Translations under genes and position numbers: made by a program
The notes under the pieces: generated by a model
The model's input: only the letters and a program-made list of their open reading frames with translations
Database searches by the model: none
What the model was told of the DNA's origin: nothing
Shown here: piece after piece, positions 11,160 through 33,966 of the stretch
Layout: the number at the start of each line of letters is the position of its first letter
How positions within the stretch are numbered: the stretch's first letter is position 1
Assembly (NCBI RefSeq): GCF_036172515.1
Contig: NZ_JAXKVW010000006.1
Coordinates: 1 to 64,000, forward strand
Source of the DNA: Flexistipes sp.
Lineage (GTDB): Bacteria > Chrysiogenota > Deferribacteres > Deferribacterales > Flexistipitaceae
Length of the DNA: 64,000 nt
Reading direction: 5' to 3'

Positions 11160-11428
11160 GTTTCCCCCTCTGACAATTTTTTCATTTGAGCAACTATTTT
11201 AAAAGATAGGGCAATTACAACAGAAAAGAATTCGGTTTAGCTGCATTTACTCAGGCAGAAACCTTCTGCTTTGCATGGCCCATACTTAGCCGGTATCAGA
11301 CTGATGCTGAAAACAAATGGAAGCTTTAAATCGTAAGACTAAATGAAAAAAAGATTTTAGATATGTTGATAAGAGCAATAATGGAAAATTATTCATTCCA
11401 CCCTCCGTAGATTTTACCGTTATGACGG

Positions 11429-11663
11429 TCAGGTTAGATATCCTGGCTTGCCATCTCTTCTGTCTGCCTGTAGCATCGGCCAAAGGCCGATAAATTTGTG
11501 TACACAATAAGTCAGGCAGACAGAAAACCTACTAACCGGCCTTCCCACCCCGCCCCAAAATTAATTTAGGTAATTTTGGGGCGAGACAGTGGCCAAAAAA
11601 AGCTTTCGTCCGGCTTACAGTTGCGGGGGCAGCACCGGCCTTTCACCGGTTTCCCTAACCTGA
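11429..11663 (-). ncRNA. cobalamin riboswitch upstream of nrdD
   Basis: Read on the minus strand, the conserved core is clear: GGGAAACCGGTGAAAGGCCG, GGTGCTGCCCCCGCAACTG, then CCACTG...GTGGGAAGG around an A/T-rich hairpin, and a B12-box-like AAGCCAGGATATC near the end. Closing helix CAGGTTAG/CTAACCTG joins the two ends (11655-11663 with 11429-11437). A peripheral 13-bp helix (11458-11470 with 11513-11525) encloses a copy of repeat R2. The aptamer lies about 270 bases before the nrdD start. The expression platform is not obvious; a CCGT/ACGG hairpin directly follows the aptamer. Cobalamin would be expected to lower nrdD expression. Confidence 0.9.
11470..11510. repeat. small hairpin repeat R2 inside the riboswitch arm
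   Basis: GTAGCATCGGCCAAAGGCCG then ATAAATTTGTGTACACAATAA matches 9095-9134 (inverted) and 8641-8667. It occupies almost exactly the loop of the 13-bp peripheral riboswitch helix. Confidence 0.75.
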
Positions 11664-11710
11664 TTAAAGAGTACCAAACTTATACTCGCCTTTCAACAAA
11701 AAAGACAAAA

Positions 11711-28245: not shown

Positions 28246-28322
<77 letters not shown>

Positions 28323-28364
28323 TTTTCTTCTTTGCTAACAGAAAGTTAGGCAATCGGTTTTTAT

Positions 28365-28386
28365 ATTGTGATAAAATTGTGATAAA
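28365..28386 (+). repeat. integrase arm-type repeat pair, left end
   Basis: Two tandem ATTGTGATAAA units lie just before the integrase stop codon. The same 22 bases occur at 33711-33732, and one unit lies outside the element at 33903-33914. Spacing of 11 bp fits arm-type binding sites. Confidence 0.65.
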
Positions 28387-29502
28387 TCAGGCTATCAGAT
28401 AGTCATCAAACTTCGATTCATAATCCTCATTTTCCATAAAATTTGCATAAACTTTAAAAAGTGTCTCGAAATTCTGATGACCTAACTGCTTAGCCACAAA
28501 TCCTATCCTGTCACCCGCTTCCAATGCCAGTGACGCATAGGTGTGACGTGTCTGATAAATTATCCTGTAGGGAATATTCAATGCTTTCAATGTCGGCAGC
28601 CAATATGACTTTTTGATTTTGGCCGAACTGTGATAAGGCATACCGTATTTGTTGATAAACATGAACTCATTGCCCGATTCAACAAAAGCCTGATAATTTC
28701 TTAACTCTTTTATTACTTTCTTTGAAAGCTTTACATACCGTTTAGACCTCTTGGTTTTAACTGTATCCAGATCACCGCCCGTTATTCTCTCTTTCGTAAA
28801 ATAGTAACCCTTATCCAGATTAAGATATTTCCACTTCATGGCCAGCACTTCGCCTATTCTCATCCCTGTGAAAAACAGTACAACAAACATTGTATAGATG
28901 TGATGTGGGTGGTTTTCTGATAAGTGATCGAGTATCCTGATAACCTCTTCTTTTTCAAACGGATGGATTTCAGGGTTTTCCACCTTTAAATTCTTAATCT
29001 CCTTTTTCAGGTCTTCGGCGATATAGTTTCTTTTTCTGGCATACTCAAGAACACCTCTGAGTATTATCAGATGATTATTTACAGCCTTGTTGCACAATTC
29101 GTATTCTTCCTTGAGAAATAATACGAAATCATCAAGATCGGCCAAATCGATATTGTTGATTTTTCTGCCTTCGAAAAATTCCAATATTTTTTTGGAGTTG
29201 TGTTCATAGCCTTTAAAGGTGGTTCGCTTTAAAAGGGTCTTCTGTCTTTTCATATACATTTCCATTACTTCATGGAAATATTTGGATGCCTTAACCCTTC
29301 TGGTCCTGCTTTTCTTATATTCAGGGAACCACTTTTCCAGGATAAACGTGCCTTCTGATATTTCATGTTTGATGATGGTGTGGTTCGCTTGTTGCAATGC
29401 CCTGTTTTTCTTTGTGTCATCCAATCCAAGCGGAATGCGGTATTGTCTATCGTCATATGTAAAACTCATCCACAGTTTATTATTTCTCGCATATACACCC
29501 AT
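28387..29502 (-). CDS. tyrosine-recombinase integrase of the element
   Basis: A 371-residue phage-type integrase. Residues 1-85 form an arm-binding-like basic region (YARNNKLWMSFTYDDRQYRIPLG), and 85-175 a SAM-like core-binding domain. The catalytic domain has Arg in FTGMRIGEVLAMKWKYL (about 216-232), a Lys in the beta hairpin region VKTKRSKRYVKL, H-x-x-R in YQTRHTYASLALEAG (about 319-333), H in AKQLGHQNFETLFKVY and the nucleophile Tyr in KVYANF. The full set R-K-HxxR-H-Y appears intact. It lies with its 3' end 68 bases from the att core, the usual arrangement, and starts 3 bases after the excisionase-like gene. Confidence 0.92.
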   Translation of the reverse strand: MGVYARNNKLWMSFTYDDRQYRIPLGLDDTKKNRALQQANHTIIKHEISEGTFILEKWFPEYKKSRTRRVKASKYFHEVMEMYMKRQKTLLKRTTFKGYEHNSKKILEFFEGRKINNIDLADLDDFVLFLKEEYELCNKAVNNHLIILRGVLEYARKRNYIAEDLKKEIKNLKVENPEIHPFEKEEVIRILDHLSENHPHHIYTMFVVLFFTGMRIGEVLAMKWKYLNLDKGYYFTKERITGGDLDTVKTKRSKRYVKLSKKVIKELRNYQAFVESGNEFMFINKYGMPYHSSAKIKKSYWLPTLKALNIPYRIIYQTRHTYASLALEAGDRIGFVAKQLGHQNFETLFKVYANFMENEDYESKFDDYLIA

Positions 29503-29505
29503 AAA

Positions 29506-29910
29506 CTACCTCCGTTCACCACGGAGGCCGAAATACTCAAGCATCCTCTCCTTAATAAAACGGACATTTCTGCCTACATAGATGTAATGATAACCTTTCC
29601 TCAGCTTCTTCTTAAACTTGGTGTTTCTCAATGACTGCGGGTTCCACTTGATAATTTCTGCCATTTCATCAGTTGTCAGTAGTGTTTCACCGTCAGTTTC
29701 CGCAGTCACGTGTTCTGATACCACTTTTTGAAGACGCTGAATTTCATCGGTTACATCGATAAGGGCAGTCTTGCCGTTAACAGAGATTTGCCTGAAATAT
29801 CTTTCATTTGCCTCTGCTACCAATCCCTCGGCGCCTATTAAATTTTCAATCAACCTGTTGCCTGTTTCCTTAATACTATATCCATAATTGCTTTTGCAAG
29901 GATTTTTCAT
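29506..29910 (-). CDS. putative excisionase / DNA-binding recombination directionality factor
   Basis: A 134-residue protein directly upstream of the integrase (3-base gap, likely coupled). The C-terminal 55 residues (TTDEMAEIIKWNPQSLRNTK, then KLRKGYHYIYVGRNVRFIKERMLEYFGL) look like a winged-helix MerR/excisionase-type domain, in which a basic helix is followed by a wing and a stabilising helix. The N-terminal half is charged and without recognisable motifs. Its start codon is preceded by a long hairpin that would cover the ribosome binding site. The assignment rests on position and this C-terminal pattern. Confidence 0.65.
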   Translation of the reverse strand: MKNPCKSNYGYSIKETGNRLIENLIGAEGLVAEANERYFRQISVNGKTALIDVTDEIQRLQKVVSEHVTAETDGETLLTTDEMAEIIKWNPQSLRNTKFKKKLRKGYHYIYVGRNVRFIKERMLEYFGLRGERR

Positions 29911-30273: not shown

Positions 30274-30681
30274 TTACTCGGGAGGCAAGACTTCCCCATA
30301 TTTTCTGCGCCATTTTTTTATACTTTCATACTCATTTTTTGTTACATATATTTTTTTCTTGCCATCGATTGATCCTATTATCTTTGTCACATTATAACAT
30401 AATTCCCGTCTTTCAATCGCTTTGAAAAACTTGTTCATATCATAAAGATTTTGTTGCAGATAATACTTAGACAGAGACCCCTGCTGACACTTACTTATTA
30501 GGTACTTGTAATAAGCGTTTTTGTGATCGTAGTTTATGCTTTCCAGATCTGTAACTTCAAAATAATTCTTCTGTATAAATACAAAAAATTCTTTTATAAG
30601 CCGTCTTGCCTGCTCTACAGAAGATTTCGTTCCCTTCAGTTTACACTTTCTTTCAAACTCACTTTCCAATGTTTTTTTCAT
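30274..30681 (-). CDS. recombinase-like protein with core-binding domain only
   Basis: A 135-residue basic protein. The helical layout (SSVEQARRLIKEFFVFIQKNY, then YYKYLISKCQQGSLSKYYLQQNLYDMNKFFKAI) resembles the SAM-like core-binding domain of tyrosine recombinases. It ends just where a catalytic domain would begin (KKKIYVTKNEYESIKKWRRKYGE), and no catalytic continuation is seen downstream in any frame. It starts 29 bases after the larger recombinase gene. It could be a degraded recombinase or a dedicated partner or inhibitor that binds the core site. Confidence 0.55.
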   Translation of the reverse strand: MKKTLESEFERKCKLKGTKSSVEQARRLIKEFFVFIQKNYFEVTDLESINYDHKNAYYKYLISKCQQGSLSKYYLQQNLYDMNKFFKAIERRELCYNVTKIIGSIDGKKKIYVTKNEYESIKKWRRKYGEVLPPE

Positions 30682-30710: not shown

Positions 30711-31673
30711 TTATTTGCCAAGATAATAACTGGTAATATCTACGCGATGATGACCCAATTCTTCGCTGATTTGTAGCCTAACCTCTAAATCTTTTTCCTT
30801 TTTAACGGGATTTTCCTCAAAAGCGTCACGTTTAACAGGCGGCTCATGTCCTGTGAGCTCTATATACCTTGTTTGTGCATAATGATGCCTTTCCCCGTGG
30901 AAGTTGTATTTTATACCTGTCTCTTCCCTGAAGTTTCTTATCACATTATATGAAAATGCTTTCCAGTCCTTATATCTGTAGTTATCAGGAATTAAAGAAT
31001 TATTAAGCCGAAATTCTTTGCGGAATGCTCTTACTGAGTTTATTAATTCTTTCTGTTTCTCGAAAGCTCTTAATGTTCTTAACTGGCCACCTTTTGTTCC
31101 CCTCAGTATATCTATAGTACCGTTTTTATGCAGTTCTTTGCCAGTAAAGAGGGCCGATTCCTTAAATCTAAGCCCCAACTGTCTTTGCAGCTCAGTTTGG
31201 ATTCGTAGAGCTTCATATTTTATATCACCAGTTGATAAATATTTATCTGTTAAAAATTCTGATAATTTTTGATGCGTATAATCAGTAATACTCTTATCGA
31301 CATTATCAAATCTTGAGCCTCTGTTTAACCCATATTCTTTAGCTGAAATATTGAGATCGGTACGGTAATAATATGTAAAAATTGTGTTTAATGATGAAAT
31401 AATATTTGTAGCGTGCCCCGCAGATATTTCATTGTTGTCCAACCTTTCCTGAATATAATTTGCAAAATCAGACATCTGTTCAGAATCAAGCTTTGCAAGA
31501 TTTTTCAAACCGTATTCTTCCTTGGCAAAATCGGCTAACAAGCGAATAGCTTGTGCTGATTTTTGCATTGTTTCTTCATTCTTTGACTTTACAACTTCCA
31601 TTGCCATGCGGAAACTTGCAGCTTTCCGTGATAAATCCTTTTCCCCGTTGAAATTACGCCTTGTTTTTGACAT
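30711..31673 (-). CDS. second tyrosine recombinase (integrase-domain protein)
   Basis: A 320-residue protein. The N-terminal helical core-binding part spans about 1-125. The catalytic part has the first Arg in RQLGLRFKESALF (about 168-180), a Lys in LRGTKGGQLRTLRAF, H-x-x-R-type FHGERHHYAQTRYIEL (about 261-276), and EELGHHRVDITSYYLGK at the C-terminus, with the second His and a nucleophile Tyr near the end. The short LGHHRVDITSYYLG ending is typical of the integrase-domain proteins found in conjugative elements of the SXT type. It may act in excision, dimer resolution or inversion. An upstream terminator-like hairpin may control it. Confidence 0.75.
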   Translation of the reverse strand: MSKTRRNFNGEKDLSRKAASFRMAMEVVKSKNEETMQKSAQAIRLLADFAKEEYGLKNLAKLDSEQMSDFANYIQERLDNNEISAGHATNIISSLNTIFTYYYRTDLNISAKEYGLNRGSRFDNVDKSITDYTHQKLSEFLTDKYLSTGDIKYEALRIQTELQRQLGLRFKESALFTGKELHKNGTIDILRGTKGGQLRTLRAFEKQKELINSVRAFRKEFRLNNSLIPDNYRYKDWKAFSYNVIRNFREETGIKYNFHGERHHYAQTRYIELTGHEPPVKRDAFEENPVKKEKDLEVRLQISEELGHHRVDITSYYLGK

Positions 31674-31703
31674 ACTTCACCTCTCTCTTTAATTAATACG
31701 TAA

Positions 31704-31733
31704 CAAATAAAAATTTGAGCTCATCAGCTCAAA
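31704..31733 (-). terminator. terminator-like hairpin upstream of the second recombinase
   Basis: On the minus strand TTTGAGCT-GATG-AGCTCAAA is followed by TTTTTATTT. It would end a leftward transcript made in the 31.75-32.3 kb region about 30 bases before the recombinase start, either finishing a small RNA or acting as an attenuator. Confidence 0.6.
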
Positions 31734-32023
31734 AGAGATTTTCTTGTGTGAGTTTTTACAGATAATACGCTACAAGGAATGTATGTTAGCGAATCCTCCT
31801 GGTTTCAGGCACCAAGAAGCCTTGTATCATCTATATTAACTCACTTCTCCGATAGTGAGATTTAAAGGATTTAGACACAGTCATGAATGGCGTAGCAACC
31901 GACTGGCATTATATCGGGACACTTTGTAAGGCCTGATACAATGACATAACTGTGAATTTTATGTTTTTTATGTAGATAATGGCTTGCTTGTAAAACCCAT
32001 GAATAAAGGCTTAGGCGTATCTT

Positions 32024-32067
32024 ATATTTTTTACATTCACCTTTGGTAAGGTGAACGTAAAAAATAT
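32024..32067. repeat. long hairpin in the divergent region
   Basis: ATATTTTTTAC-A-TTCACCTT pairs with AAGGTGAA-C-GTAAAAAATAT around TGGT: 19 of 20 positions pair. The A/T-rich outer arms would give U-runs in either direction. Confidence 0.7.
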
Positions 32068-32110
32068 GTCTTTGTGTGATTTATTGTTATTGTGATTTAC
32101 AGCTTTGCTG

Positions 32111-32132
32111 TTCATCAACTGTAGTTGATGAA
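32111..32132 (+). terminator. 10-bp hairpin followed by TTTT
   Basis: TTCATCAACT-GT-AGTTGATGAA is followed by TTTTGATTTTT on the plus strand, so it could terminate a rightward transcript before the KAP promoter. Confidence 0.5.
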
Positions 32133-32272
32133 TTTTGATTTTTGATATAACTCCATGGTATGACTTTATCAGAATAGTAGAAACTATAATTAATTTATGG
32201 CACCGTTCGTATAAGTCAAGGGGAAATCCAATTTTGTTTATGATTGTTTTGATGATATCTTTATAATATGGT

Positions 32273-32288
32273 AACATAAGCTTATGTT
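32273..32288. promoter_or_regulatory. operator-like palindrome ahead of the KAP gene
   Basis: AACATAAGCTTATGTT is a perfect 16-bp palindrome. It lies 5 bases after a TATAAT (32262-32267), where a repressor would block transcription of the NTPase gene, and 37 bases before its ATG. Confidence 0.55.
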
Positions 32289-32324
32289 TGTTGGTAATGA
32301 TATTGATTATAGCGAGGTGAGAAA

Positions 32325-33632
32325 ATGGATGATGCAAACCTAACCTTTGAAAGTTATGATAAGCTTGAATTAAAACCATTCGCTGAGAGATTAGAAAAAT
32401 ACATTAAAGTTGAACACCTATTTTTTGATGAAAGTCTTGTAATAAGTCTCAATGCTTCATTTGGTTCAGGAAAGACCACATTTCTTAAAATGTGGAAAAA
32501 GAGAATTGATAAAGAAGAAAGTTGTTTTGGTAATAAACCGACAGTAGTTAAAATTAATGCATGGAAAGATGATTATTGTGGGGATCCATTTATTTCTCTT
32601 GTTTCTTCATTAATCGAAGAATTTGGCGTTAACAGCAAGGAAGGTAACAAATTAAAGAAAGTAATAAAAAAAATTAGTTTAGGAATGGCCAATCAAGCTA
32701 TTAAAAAACATACAGGAATGGATATATCAGAAGTGTTAAAATATCCTGAGGAACTTGCCTTGCCAAGTCCTTTTCAAGTCTATGAACAAAAGAAGAATGC
32801 CCTTGAGGAAATCAAAGAAATCATAAAAGAGTTTATATCTGAGGATAAGCTGAGTATTATATTTTTTATTGATGAATTGGACCGTTGCAGACCTGATTAC
32901 GCCATTTCTTACCTTGAAACCATAAAGCATGTTTTTGATATTAAGGGTATTGCATTTATCTTGGCTGTAGACCGCAATCAATTAGAATGCACTGCTAAAG
33001 TTGCATTTGGTAATGATATGGATTTTCCTGAATATTATAGAAAGTTTGTTCAACGAGAAATTCTATTACCTAAACCCACTGCTGATGCCAACAAAAAACT
33101 AAGCAGAGAACTCACAAAATATTACCTACAGCAAAATCATATACGAAATTGTTGGCGCATAATAGAACATGGTATGAGAATAACTGAATTAATAAATTCT
33201 TTAGAACTTACACCACGCCAAACACATGAGGCATTACGAGTATTAAGCCATTATTTAGGAACTGATGAAGGTGACAAGAGTTTAGAAGAATACCCAGCTG
33301 CAGGAATAATTTTAATGTCAATTGTAAGAACAAAAAAACCCGATATTTATGAAAAGCTTGGTAAAGAAGGAATTGAACCTACAGATGCAAAGATTTTGTT
33401 TAATAATATGATTCAAGATAGTAAAGAATGGTGGTTTAAGATGTGTTTATCTGAAAACTGTATAAAAATAAATGGCAAGAGTTTCAAAGATATATTTGTT
33501 GAGGCTGGAGTACCAGATGTGTGGGAAGCAGGAGATTCTTATCTTCAAGAAGAACAAAGATTAACAAATCATCAAAATCAATTTAAACGTTATTACTCAG
33601 ATATTGAAGATTTATTAAACTTTGAAAACTGA
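32325..33632 (+). CDS. KAP-family P-loop NTPase (cargo of the integrative element)
   Basis: A 435-residue cytosolic protein with no visible membrane helix. Walker A is NASFGSGKTTF with K50-T51. Walker B is IIFFIDELDRCRPDYA with D185-E186 and the LDRCRPDY box typical of KAP NTPases. Next comes FILAVDRNQL with a sensor-like Asp-Arg, then FPEYYRKFVQREI and a helical C-terminus rich in Glu/Lys. KAP proteins include PifA, the F-plasmid T7-exclusion protein, and parts of other phage-defence systems. Many have membrane helices inserted between the Walker boxes; this one does not. Carriage on an integrase element as the only cargo fits a defence role (inference). SD GAGGTGAG. Confidence 0.85.
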   Translation: MDDANLTFESYDKLELKPFAERLEKYIKVEHLFFDESLVISLNASFGSGKTTFLKMWKKRIDKEESCFGNKPTVVKINAWKDDYCGDPFISLVSSLIEEFGVNSKEGNKLKKVIKKISLGMANQAIKKHTGMDISEVLKYPEELALPSPFQVYEQKKNALEEIKEIIKEFISEDKLSIIFFIDELDRCRPDYAISYLETIKHVFDIKGIAFILAVDRNQLECTAKVAFGNDMDFPEYYRKFVQREILLPKPTADANKKLSRELTKYYLQQNHIRNCWRIIEHGMRITELINSLELTPRQTHEALRVLSHYLGTDEGDKSLEEYPAAGIILMSIVRTKKPDIYEKLGKEGIEPTDAKILFNNMIQDSKEWWFKMCLSENCIKINGKSFKDIFVEAGVPDVWEAGDSYLQEEQRLTNHQNQFKRYYSDIEDLLNFEN

Positions 33633-33710
33633 AATTTATATTAATGTAATTTAACTGAAATATTAATATATGGGTATATTTTAGGCCTCCGTGGTGTATT
33701 TGATTTTTTG

Positions 33711-33732
33711 ATTGTGATAAAATTGTGATAAA
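33711..33732 (+). repeat. integrase arm-type repeat pair, right end
   Basis: The same 22 bases (two ATTGTGATAAA units) as 28365-28386, in direct orientation, 105 bases inside the attR core. The remaining 33633-33836 sequence is non-coding; it includes GGCCTCCGTGGTG (33684-33696), an inverted copy of 29517-29529. Confidence 0.65.
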
Positions 33733-33836
33733 AATGGGTTATATAGGATAACCCGAGATTAGAGAGGATTATACCAAAGTCTTATCTGACATATGTTTAA
33801 AGCATCTAAATTACTCTTGTGTAACCATTTATTTGT

Positions 33837-33857
33837 GTTCAAATCCTCTCGCCCCGA
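33837..33857 (+). repeat. attR core
   Basis: 21 bases identical to 28299-28319, ending in CTCGCCCCGA. No further tRNA sequence precedes it, so it is the displaced half of the attachment site. Confidence 0.9.
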
Positions 33858-33914
33858 TTATTTTTCCTTTTACTAACAGTATGTTAGCCATTCGAGTTTC
33901 GGATTGTGATAAAA
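33858..33914 (+). other. left-arm-like sequence outside attR (possible remnant of an earlier element)
   Basis: It has a CTAAC-AGTAT-GTTAG hairpin, GCCATTCGAG and ATTGTGATAAAA in the same order and spacing as 28323-28376 (CTAAC-AGAAA-GTTAG, GCAATCGG, ATTGTGATAAAA). This is the layout of an integrase left arm, not of unrelated chromosome. Confidence 0.55.
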
Positions 33915-33966
33915 AAAATCATTCTAACAACATTTTTGTATCAACCTGTTAAAATTTATAGTTTTC

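Follow-up and report, generated by a model that had tools for sequence, protein, structure and literature searches.

A probable transfer origin within the predicted gene of a conserved structured RNA in a small tRNA-integrated element of Flexistipes

In a 64,000-nt stretch of Flexistipes sp. DNA (contig NZ_JAXKVW010000006.1, positions 1 to 64,000; hereafter the window), a 650-bp region rich in palindromes (31674-32324) separates the two gene blocks of an integrated element. Is this region a structured RNA gene, or is it a cis-acting origin at which the element could be mobilized? An earlier note, made from the letters alone, had offered the two as options. The analysis presented here indicates that the region is most likely both a transfer origin and a gene whose product is a conserved structured RNA. 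Specifically, we consider it probable that an MpsAB-type mobilization module, of the kind known from Salmonella Genomic Island 1 (SGI1), has its oriT here together with an RNA gene that resembles sgm-sRNA.

The element itself is a 5.5-kb integrative mobilizable element (IME) inserted in a tRNA-Pro gene, with its own integrase and flanking 21-bp repeats. The attL copy (28299-28319, plus strand) lies at the 3' end of tRNA-Pro (28246-28322) and attR (33837-33857, plus strand) is the same repeat; in a sister genome (G001) the tRNA-Pro site is uninterrupted and its flanks match. The integrase gene (28387-29502, minus strand) is neighbored by a gene for an excisionase-like small protein (29506-29910, minus strand), which has a weak match to PHROG 66 and is conserved beside the integrase. 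The cargo (32325-33632, plus strand) encodes a KAP P-loop NTPase that is a candidate defence protein (PDC-S20), and related elements carry restriction-modification genes. Full or partial copies of TTGTGATAAAATTGTGATAAA recur near both element ends (28360-28390, 33710-33735 and 33904-33915), with a copy also at the empty site of the sister genome; these are probably arm-type binding sites of the integrase.

All of the palindromes previously named in the region were found. The 44-nt hairpin at 32024-32067 (minus strand), which is the candidate oriT core, has arms of 20 nt that are 95% complementary, and it scores 42.5, whereas none of 200 dinucleotide-shuffled sequences exceeds 26.5. A 10-bp stem-loop, TTCATCAAC/GTTGATGAA (32111-32132, minus strand), is conserved with compensatory changes, and a short stem-loop, CAGC-AAA-GCTG (32100-32110, minus strand), is conserved as well. 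The terminator-like hairpin is likewise present, at 31733-31714 on the minus strand. On that strand, 31705-32190 folds with −128.8 kcal/mol and z = −8.15, as compared to z = −3.24 for the plus strand, so that the excess of structure is real both by dinucleotide shuffles and by the minus-strand z-score. The long-range pair that had been proposed between TTGTATCA (31822) and TGATACAA (31934) was rejected, since in the conserved structure the two do not pair with each other and each is one arm of a separate covarying helix.

The fold z-score, covariation, and matches in held-out loci together predict a structured RNA of ~480 nt on the minus strand (31705-32185), its 5' end being placed from the position of the promoter; in position, it resembles the sgm-sRNA of SGI1. 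The promoter, TTGACT-16 nt-TAAATT (32192-32219, minus strand), was located by a promoter scan, and while the number of promoter-like matches around it is not above chance, it is nonetheless kept in register across the loci of the genus. Upstream of all five recombinase homologues in the genus, blocks of 440-600 bp align to the window region with 66-72% identity. RNAalifold on this alignment returns 97-107 pairs, 37-39 of which show compensatory changes. Column-shuffled alignments, a null that ignores relatedness among the loci, give a mean of 6.3 and a maximum of 13 such pairs, and an energy of −7 versus −86 kcal/mol for the real alignment. The terminator hairpin (31714-31733, minus strand) has a T-run and is located 41 nt upstream of the mpsA-like start; around its conserved loop, 6 of the 8 pairs are changed on both sides. 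The earlier note had named a lack of conservation of the palindromes as one ground for refutation; the palindromes are instead conserved and covary among related elements.

The strand of the RNA was also considered. The consensus energy is −85.6 kcal/mol in the sense orientation versus −66.3 kcal/mol in the antisense orientation, and sense-strand cells that are not Watson-Crick comprise 56 G-U and 11 A-C, a count that is biased in that the structure was derived on the sense strand. Since both its fold and its consensus are weaker, an antisense RNA was not adopted as the main reading.

The 3' domain of the RNA (31705-31848, minus strand) includes three helices and the terminator, and its covariance model, R1, spans the final 149 nt and was built from six sequences. 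In four held-out loci, R1 recovers the region in the vicinity of the recombinase: L026 (E 2e-14), L025 (1e-12), L027 (2.5e-6) and L028 (1.3e-5). In the resulting alignment of 11 sequences, 92.3% of cells pair, as compared to 35-46% with slid partners, and 20 of the 31 pairs are changed on both sides, a number reached in none of 500 shuffles; these counts lean toward the model because the alignment was fitted to R1. Relatives of the region were recovered by an alignment-based genome scan, and none by a single-sequence genome scan or an alignment-based viral scan. An Acinetobacter alignment intended for independent covariation gave only −7 kcal/mol with RNAalifold, with boundaries that differ and inserted ORFs in some loci; covariation is therefore shown only within Deferribacterota. 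In L028 (6667-7676), the mpsA-like gene is in fragments and its RNA is found at a greater distance upstream, with other ORFs in between, as in a decaying copy.

The earlier note had stated that the element has no relaxase, which is wrong in light of the gene adjacent to the region. This gene (30711-31673, minus strand; PF12835) encodes a homologue of SGI1 MpsA, an atypical relaxase of the tyrosine-recombinase type. The two proteins are 30% identical across 296 aa (E 2e-33), and the gene product is accordingly a candidate atypical relaxase. Its active-site residues are R168, K193, H258, R261, H262 and Y316, and the R, K, H, R and Y of tyrosine recombinases are invariant in 15 relatives. Two more copies of the PF12835 recombinase are present in the genome of the window and three in two sister genomes, with further homologues in two other families of the same order. 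The next gene (30274-30681, minus strand) encodes a predicted stand-alone core-binding (SAM-like) domain, and we term it mpsB-like on the basis of predicted structure and a weak profile match. Family searches gave no significant match for its product. The predicted structure (pLDDT 83) has its best match in the Cre family (probability 1.00, TM 0.47, E 0.045), and comparison with an MpsB profile is in register and weak (E 0.094); a Cre core-binding-domain-like fold has been reported for SGI1 MpsB. The two genes are 29 nt apart in the window element versus one codon in SGI1.

The mobilization module of SGI1 consists of oriT, sgm-sRNA, MpsA and MpsB; oriT and sgm-sRNA share the interval upstream of mpsA, and mobilization needs both (PMC6414798, PMC9299015). 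The discoverers of sgm-sRNA considered the module seemingly unique and could not state the role of the RNA (PMC9299015). For comparison we used a plasmid-collection record (OX345320.1, L059), in which the SGI1 module was recognized because it contains the published P5 promoter (ttgacg-16-taatat) and, alongside MpsB, an MpsA whose five catalytic residues are those published and occupy the published positions. The predicted layout of the window element follows that of SGI1: a promoter, an oriT-like hairpin within the RNA gene, the 3' domain of the RNA, a terminal hairpin, and then mpsA and mpsB. The mapped 125-bp oriT of SGI1 includes a long hairpin (CCCCGTCTCTGTC ... AACAGAGACGGGG) at −418 from mpsA; that of the window is at −394 from the mpsA-like start, those of eight other Deferribacterota loci are at −399 to −477, and similar hairpins are found at −334 to −404 in pAeme4, pOCEGK01, pPFL, pIEC338SC2 and two other Acinetobacter plasmids. 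A few relatives deviate, in that their long hairpin is positioned elsewhere or was not found, or an ORF intervenes. It is mainly the agreement in position with SGI1 that links the region to oriT. Between the RNA/oriT region of the window and the sgm-sRNA/oriT of SGI1, no sequence similarity was found, and the R1 search did not match SGI1.

The two systems also share the homology of MpsA with all catalytic residues, an IME with its own integrase, and a candidate helper in the form of F-type conjugation genes within the same cell. They differ in phylum, in the RNA (~480 nt and AT-rich in the window, 650-700 nt in SGI1), and in integration site, which is tRNA-Pro in the window and trmE in SGI1. 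In the region of SGI1 itself, fold stability has no bias toward the sense strand. This, the missing sequence similarity, the weak MpsB match, the wider mpsA-mpsB gap and the relatives with deviating hairpins count against the SGI1-type reading. Finally, none of the SGI1-family backbone genes traN, traG, sgaC and rep is found in the window element of only 5.5 kb, which is therefore not a member of the SGI1 family.

One rival explanation casts the RNA as a cis-acting 5' leader or attenuator whose only role is to control expression of the mpsA-like gene, its hairpins having no part in transfer. The RNA does lie directly upstream of this gene on the same strand, with a terminator just before the start codon. 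However, R1 finds two further copies in a related genome (G015) that are remote from any mpsA. They reside in mini-elements at tRNA-Gly genes (L078 4753-9612 and L079 5072-9301), 91% alike over 3.9 kb, each of which has an integrase and lacks mpsA and mpsB by blastp and tblastn. The first contains a 617-bp block that shares 95% identity with the oriT/RNA region at the mpsA locus of the same genome and terminates at the mpsA start. Retention of this block without mpsA argues against a simple mpsA leader and for a cis-acting origin. Moreover, the SGI1 RNA works in trans and is not replaced by a supply of MpsA and MpsB, and Rfam contains no family that matches the region at gathering score, riboswitches and leaders included. 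We therefore regard the leader as unlikely.

The protein retains every catalytic residue of a tyrosine recombinase, and the 44-nt palindrome looks like a core site with inverted arms, so the region might instead be a loxP/res-like site for multimer resolution or rearrangement that has no role in conjugation. We give this little credence: the structure reaches well past one palindrome and comprises imperfect covarying helices along with a promoter and a terminator; conjugal transfer of SGI1 requires the homologue MpsA (PMC6414798); and related genes adjoin coupling-protein genes on small plasmids. It is similarly improbable that the folding strand acts as single-stranded DNA, in the form of an oriT and a single-strand replication start, with no functional RNA. 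Hairpins are common in oriT regions, and covariation and strand asymmetry would suit folded single-stranded DNA equally well, but the structure is flanked on the same strand by a conserved promoter and a covarying terminator, and in SGI1 an RNA from the corresponding place has been seen by Northern blot.

The combined reading, a transfer origin together with an RNA gene, draws on both options of the earlier note. The cis-acting origin is supported by an oriT-like hairpin near the SGI1 distance and by a block that persists in elements devoid of mpsAB, and the leftward small RNA ending near 31.7 kb by the conserved promoter, covarying fold and terminator. By analogy with SGI1, the two probably coexist. 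The origin, marked by the 44-nt hairpin, would lie inside the ~480-nt RNA gene, whose leftward transcription would start at the 32.2-kb promoter and stop at the 31.71-kb terminator. On the SGI1 model, the integrase would excise the element, the MpsA-like tyrosine-recombinase-family protein and its separate core-binding partner MpsB would process oriT with the RNA needed as a transfer factor, and the coupling protein and type IV secretion channel of a helper would export the DNA. For the window element, we infer expression, nicking, the RNA requirement and transfer alike.

A candidate helper is found in the same genome. At ~94-117 kb of contig G000:C4 (L061, L062), genes for TraI_2, a TrwB/TraG-D_C coupling protein, TraG_N, TraH, TraN, TraU and TrbC form an F-type conjugation system. 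The IncC helpers of SGI1 combine a TraI_2 (MOBH) relaxase with an F-type channel. VirB4-type PF03135 is absent from the genus. The cluster adjoins an integrase, and the two probably constitute an ICE.

Genes annotated as 'integrase domain-containing' (PF12834/PF12835) also occur on plasmids typed as non-mobilizable, namely pOCEGK01, pPFL, pAeme4, pIEC338SC2 and pSIO1. These share with the window a homologous protein, the same catalytic residues and a long hairpin in the noncoding upstream gap. The pOCEGK01/pPFL/pAeme4 group also encodes MpsB, whereas members of the Acinetobacter/pSIO1 group have a different small ORF and, in many cases, a coupling-protein gene of their own; the small ORFs that follow the Acinetobacter-type mpsA-like genes proved not to be MpsB. 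Sliding windows across the upstream gaps of proteobacterial relatives reveal a strongly stable stretch, more stable on the sense strand, in pIEC338SC2, pOCEGK01, pYL2, L032 and L031; pPFL is nearly equal on both strands and two Aeromonas plasmids are weak. The idea of a minimal replicon was rejected, as most of the relative plasmids examined have their own Rep. In nine small plasmids typed non-mobilizable (L036, L042, L044, L046, L047, L050, L051, L053 and L054), an MpsA-like gene is accompanied by a small ORF and by a gene for a type IV coupling protein (or a TraG-like one), and from their gene content they are candidates for unrecognized mobilization systems. Three Acinetobacter plasmids of 1.7-3.0 kb with no integrase gene (L056, L057 and L058) have 45-95 nt in common with the 5' part of the pIEC338SC2 upstream region and are possibly oriT mimics.

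Two other tyrosine-recombinase-like relaxases, TcpM of pCW3 and MobK of pIGRK, have been described, and these two and MpsA have no significant sequence similarity to one another according to the MobK paper (PMC8152469). As proposed for the window, each is a tyrosine-recombinase-type relaxase that adjoins its own oriT; in contrast, their descriptions include no MpsB and no transfer RNA.

These results would place an MpsAB-type "recombinase-as-relaxase" system, studied mainly in SGI1, in another phylum. A far-diverged relative with covarying structure makes a consensus fold available for mutation, and the mini-elements that contain only oriT/RNA serve as natural test cases. The data also suggest that many plasmid "integrase" genes on non-mobilizable-typed plasmids are candidate relaxases, and point to a possible route by which small defence-carrying islands and CRISPR arrays spread. 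Tentatively, and as a possibility that we would not yet call probable, an old and widespread RNA-dependent tyrosine-recombinase relaxosome, spanning at least Deferribacterota and Pseudomonadota, may explain the mobility of many non-mobilizable-typed small plasmids and small defence islands, with oriT/RNA-only mini-elements ferrying CRISPR arrays between tRNA sites.

The two mini-elements of G015 contain CRISPR arrays in which a 36-nt repeat occurs 22 and 14 times, respectively, with 4 spacers in common. No cas genes are evident in either, and they are possible mobile CRISPR arrays. Repeats similar to theirs are present elsewhere in G015 and also in G014. In a Pseudomonadales MAG (L032 1826-10305), an MpsA/MpsB pair is followed by what by eye, from the ORFs, resembles a type I CRISPR-Cas operon. 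Elsewhere in the window, a cobalamin riboswitch (Rfam RF00174, 62 bits) is located at 11416-11703 on the minus strand.
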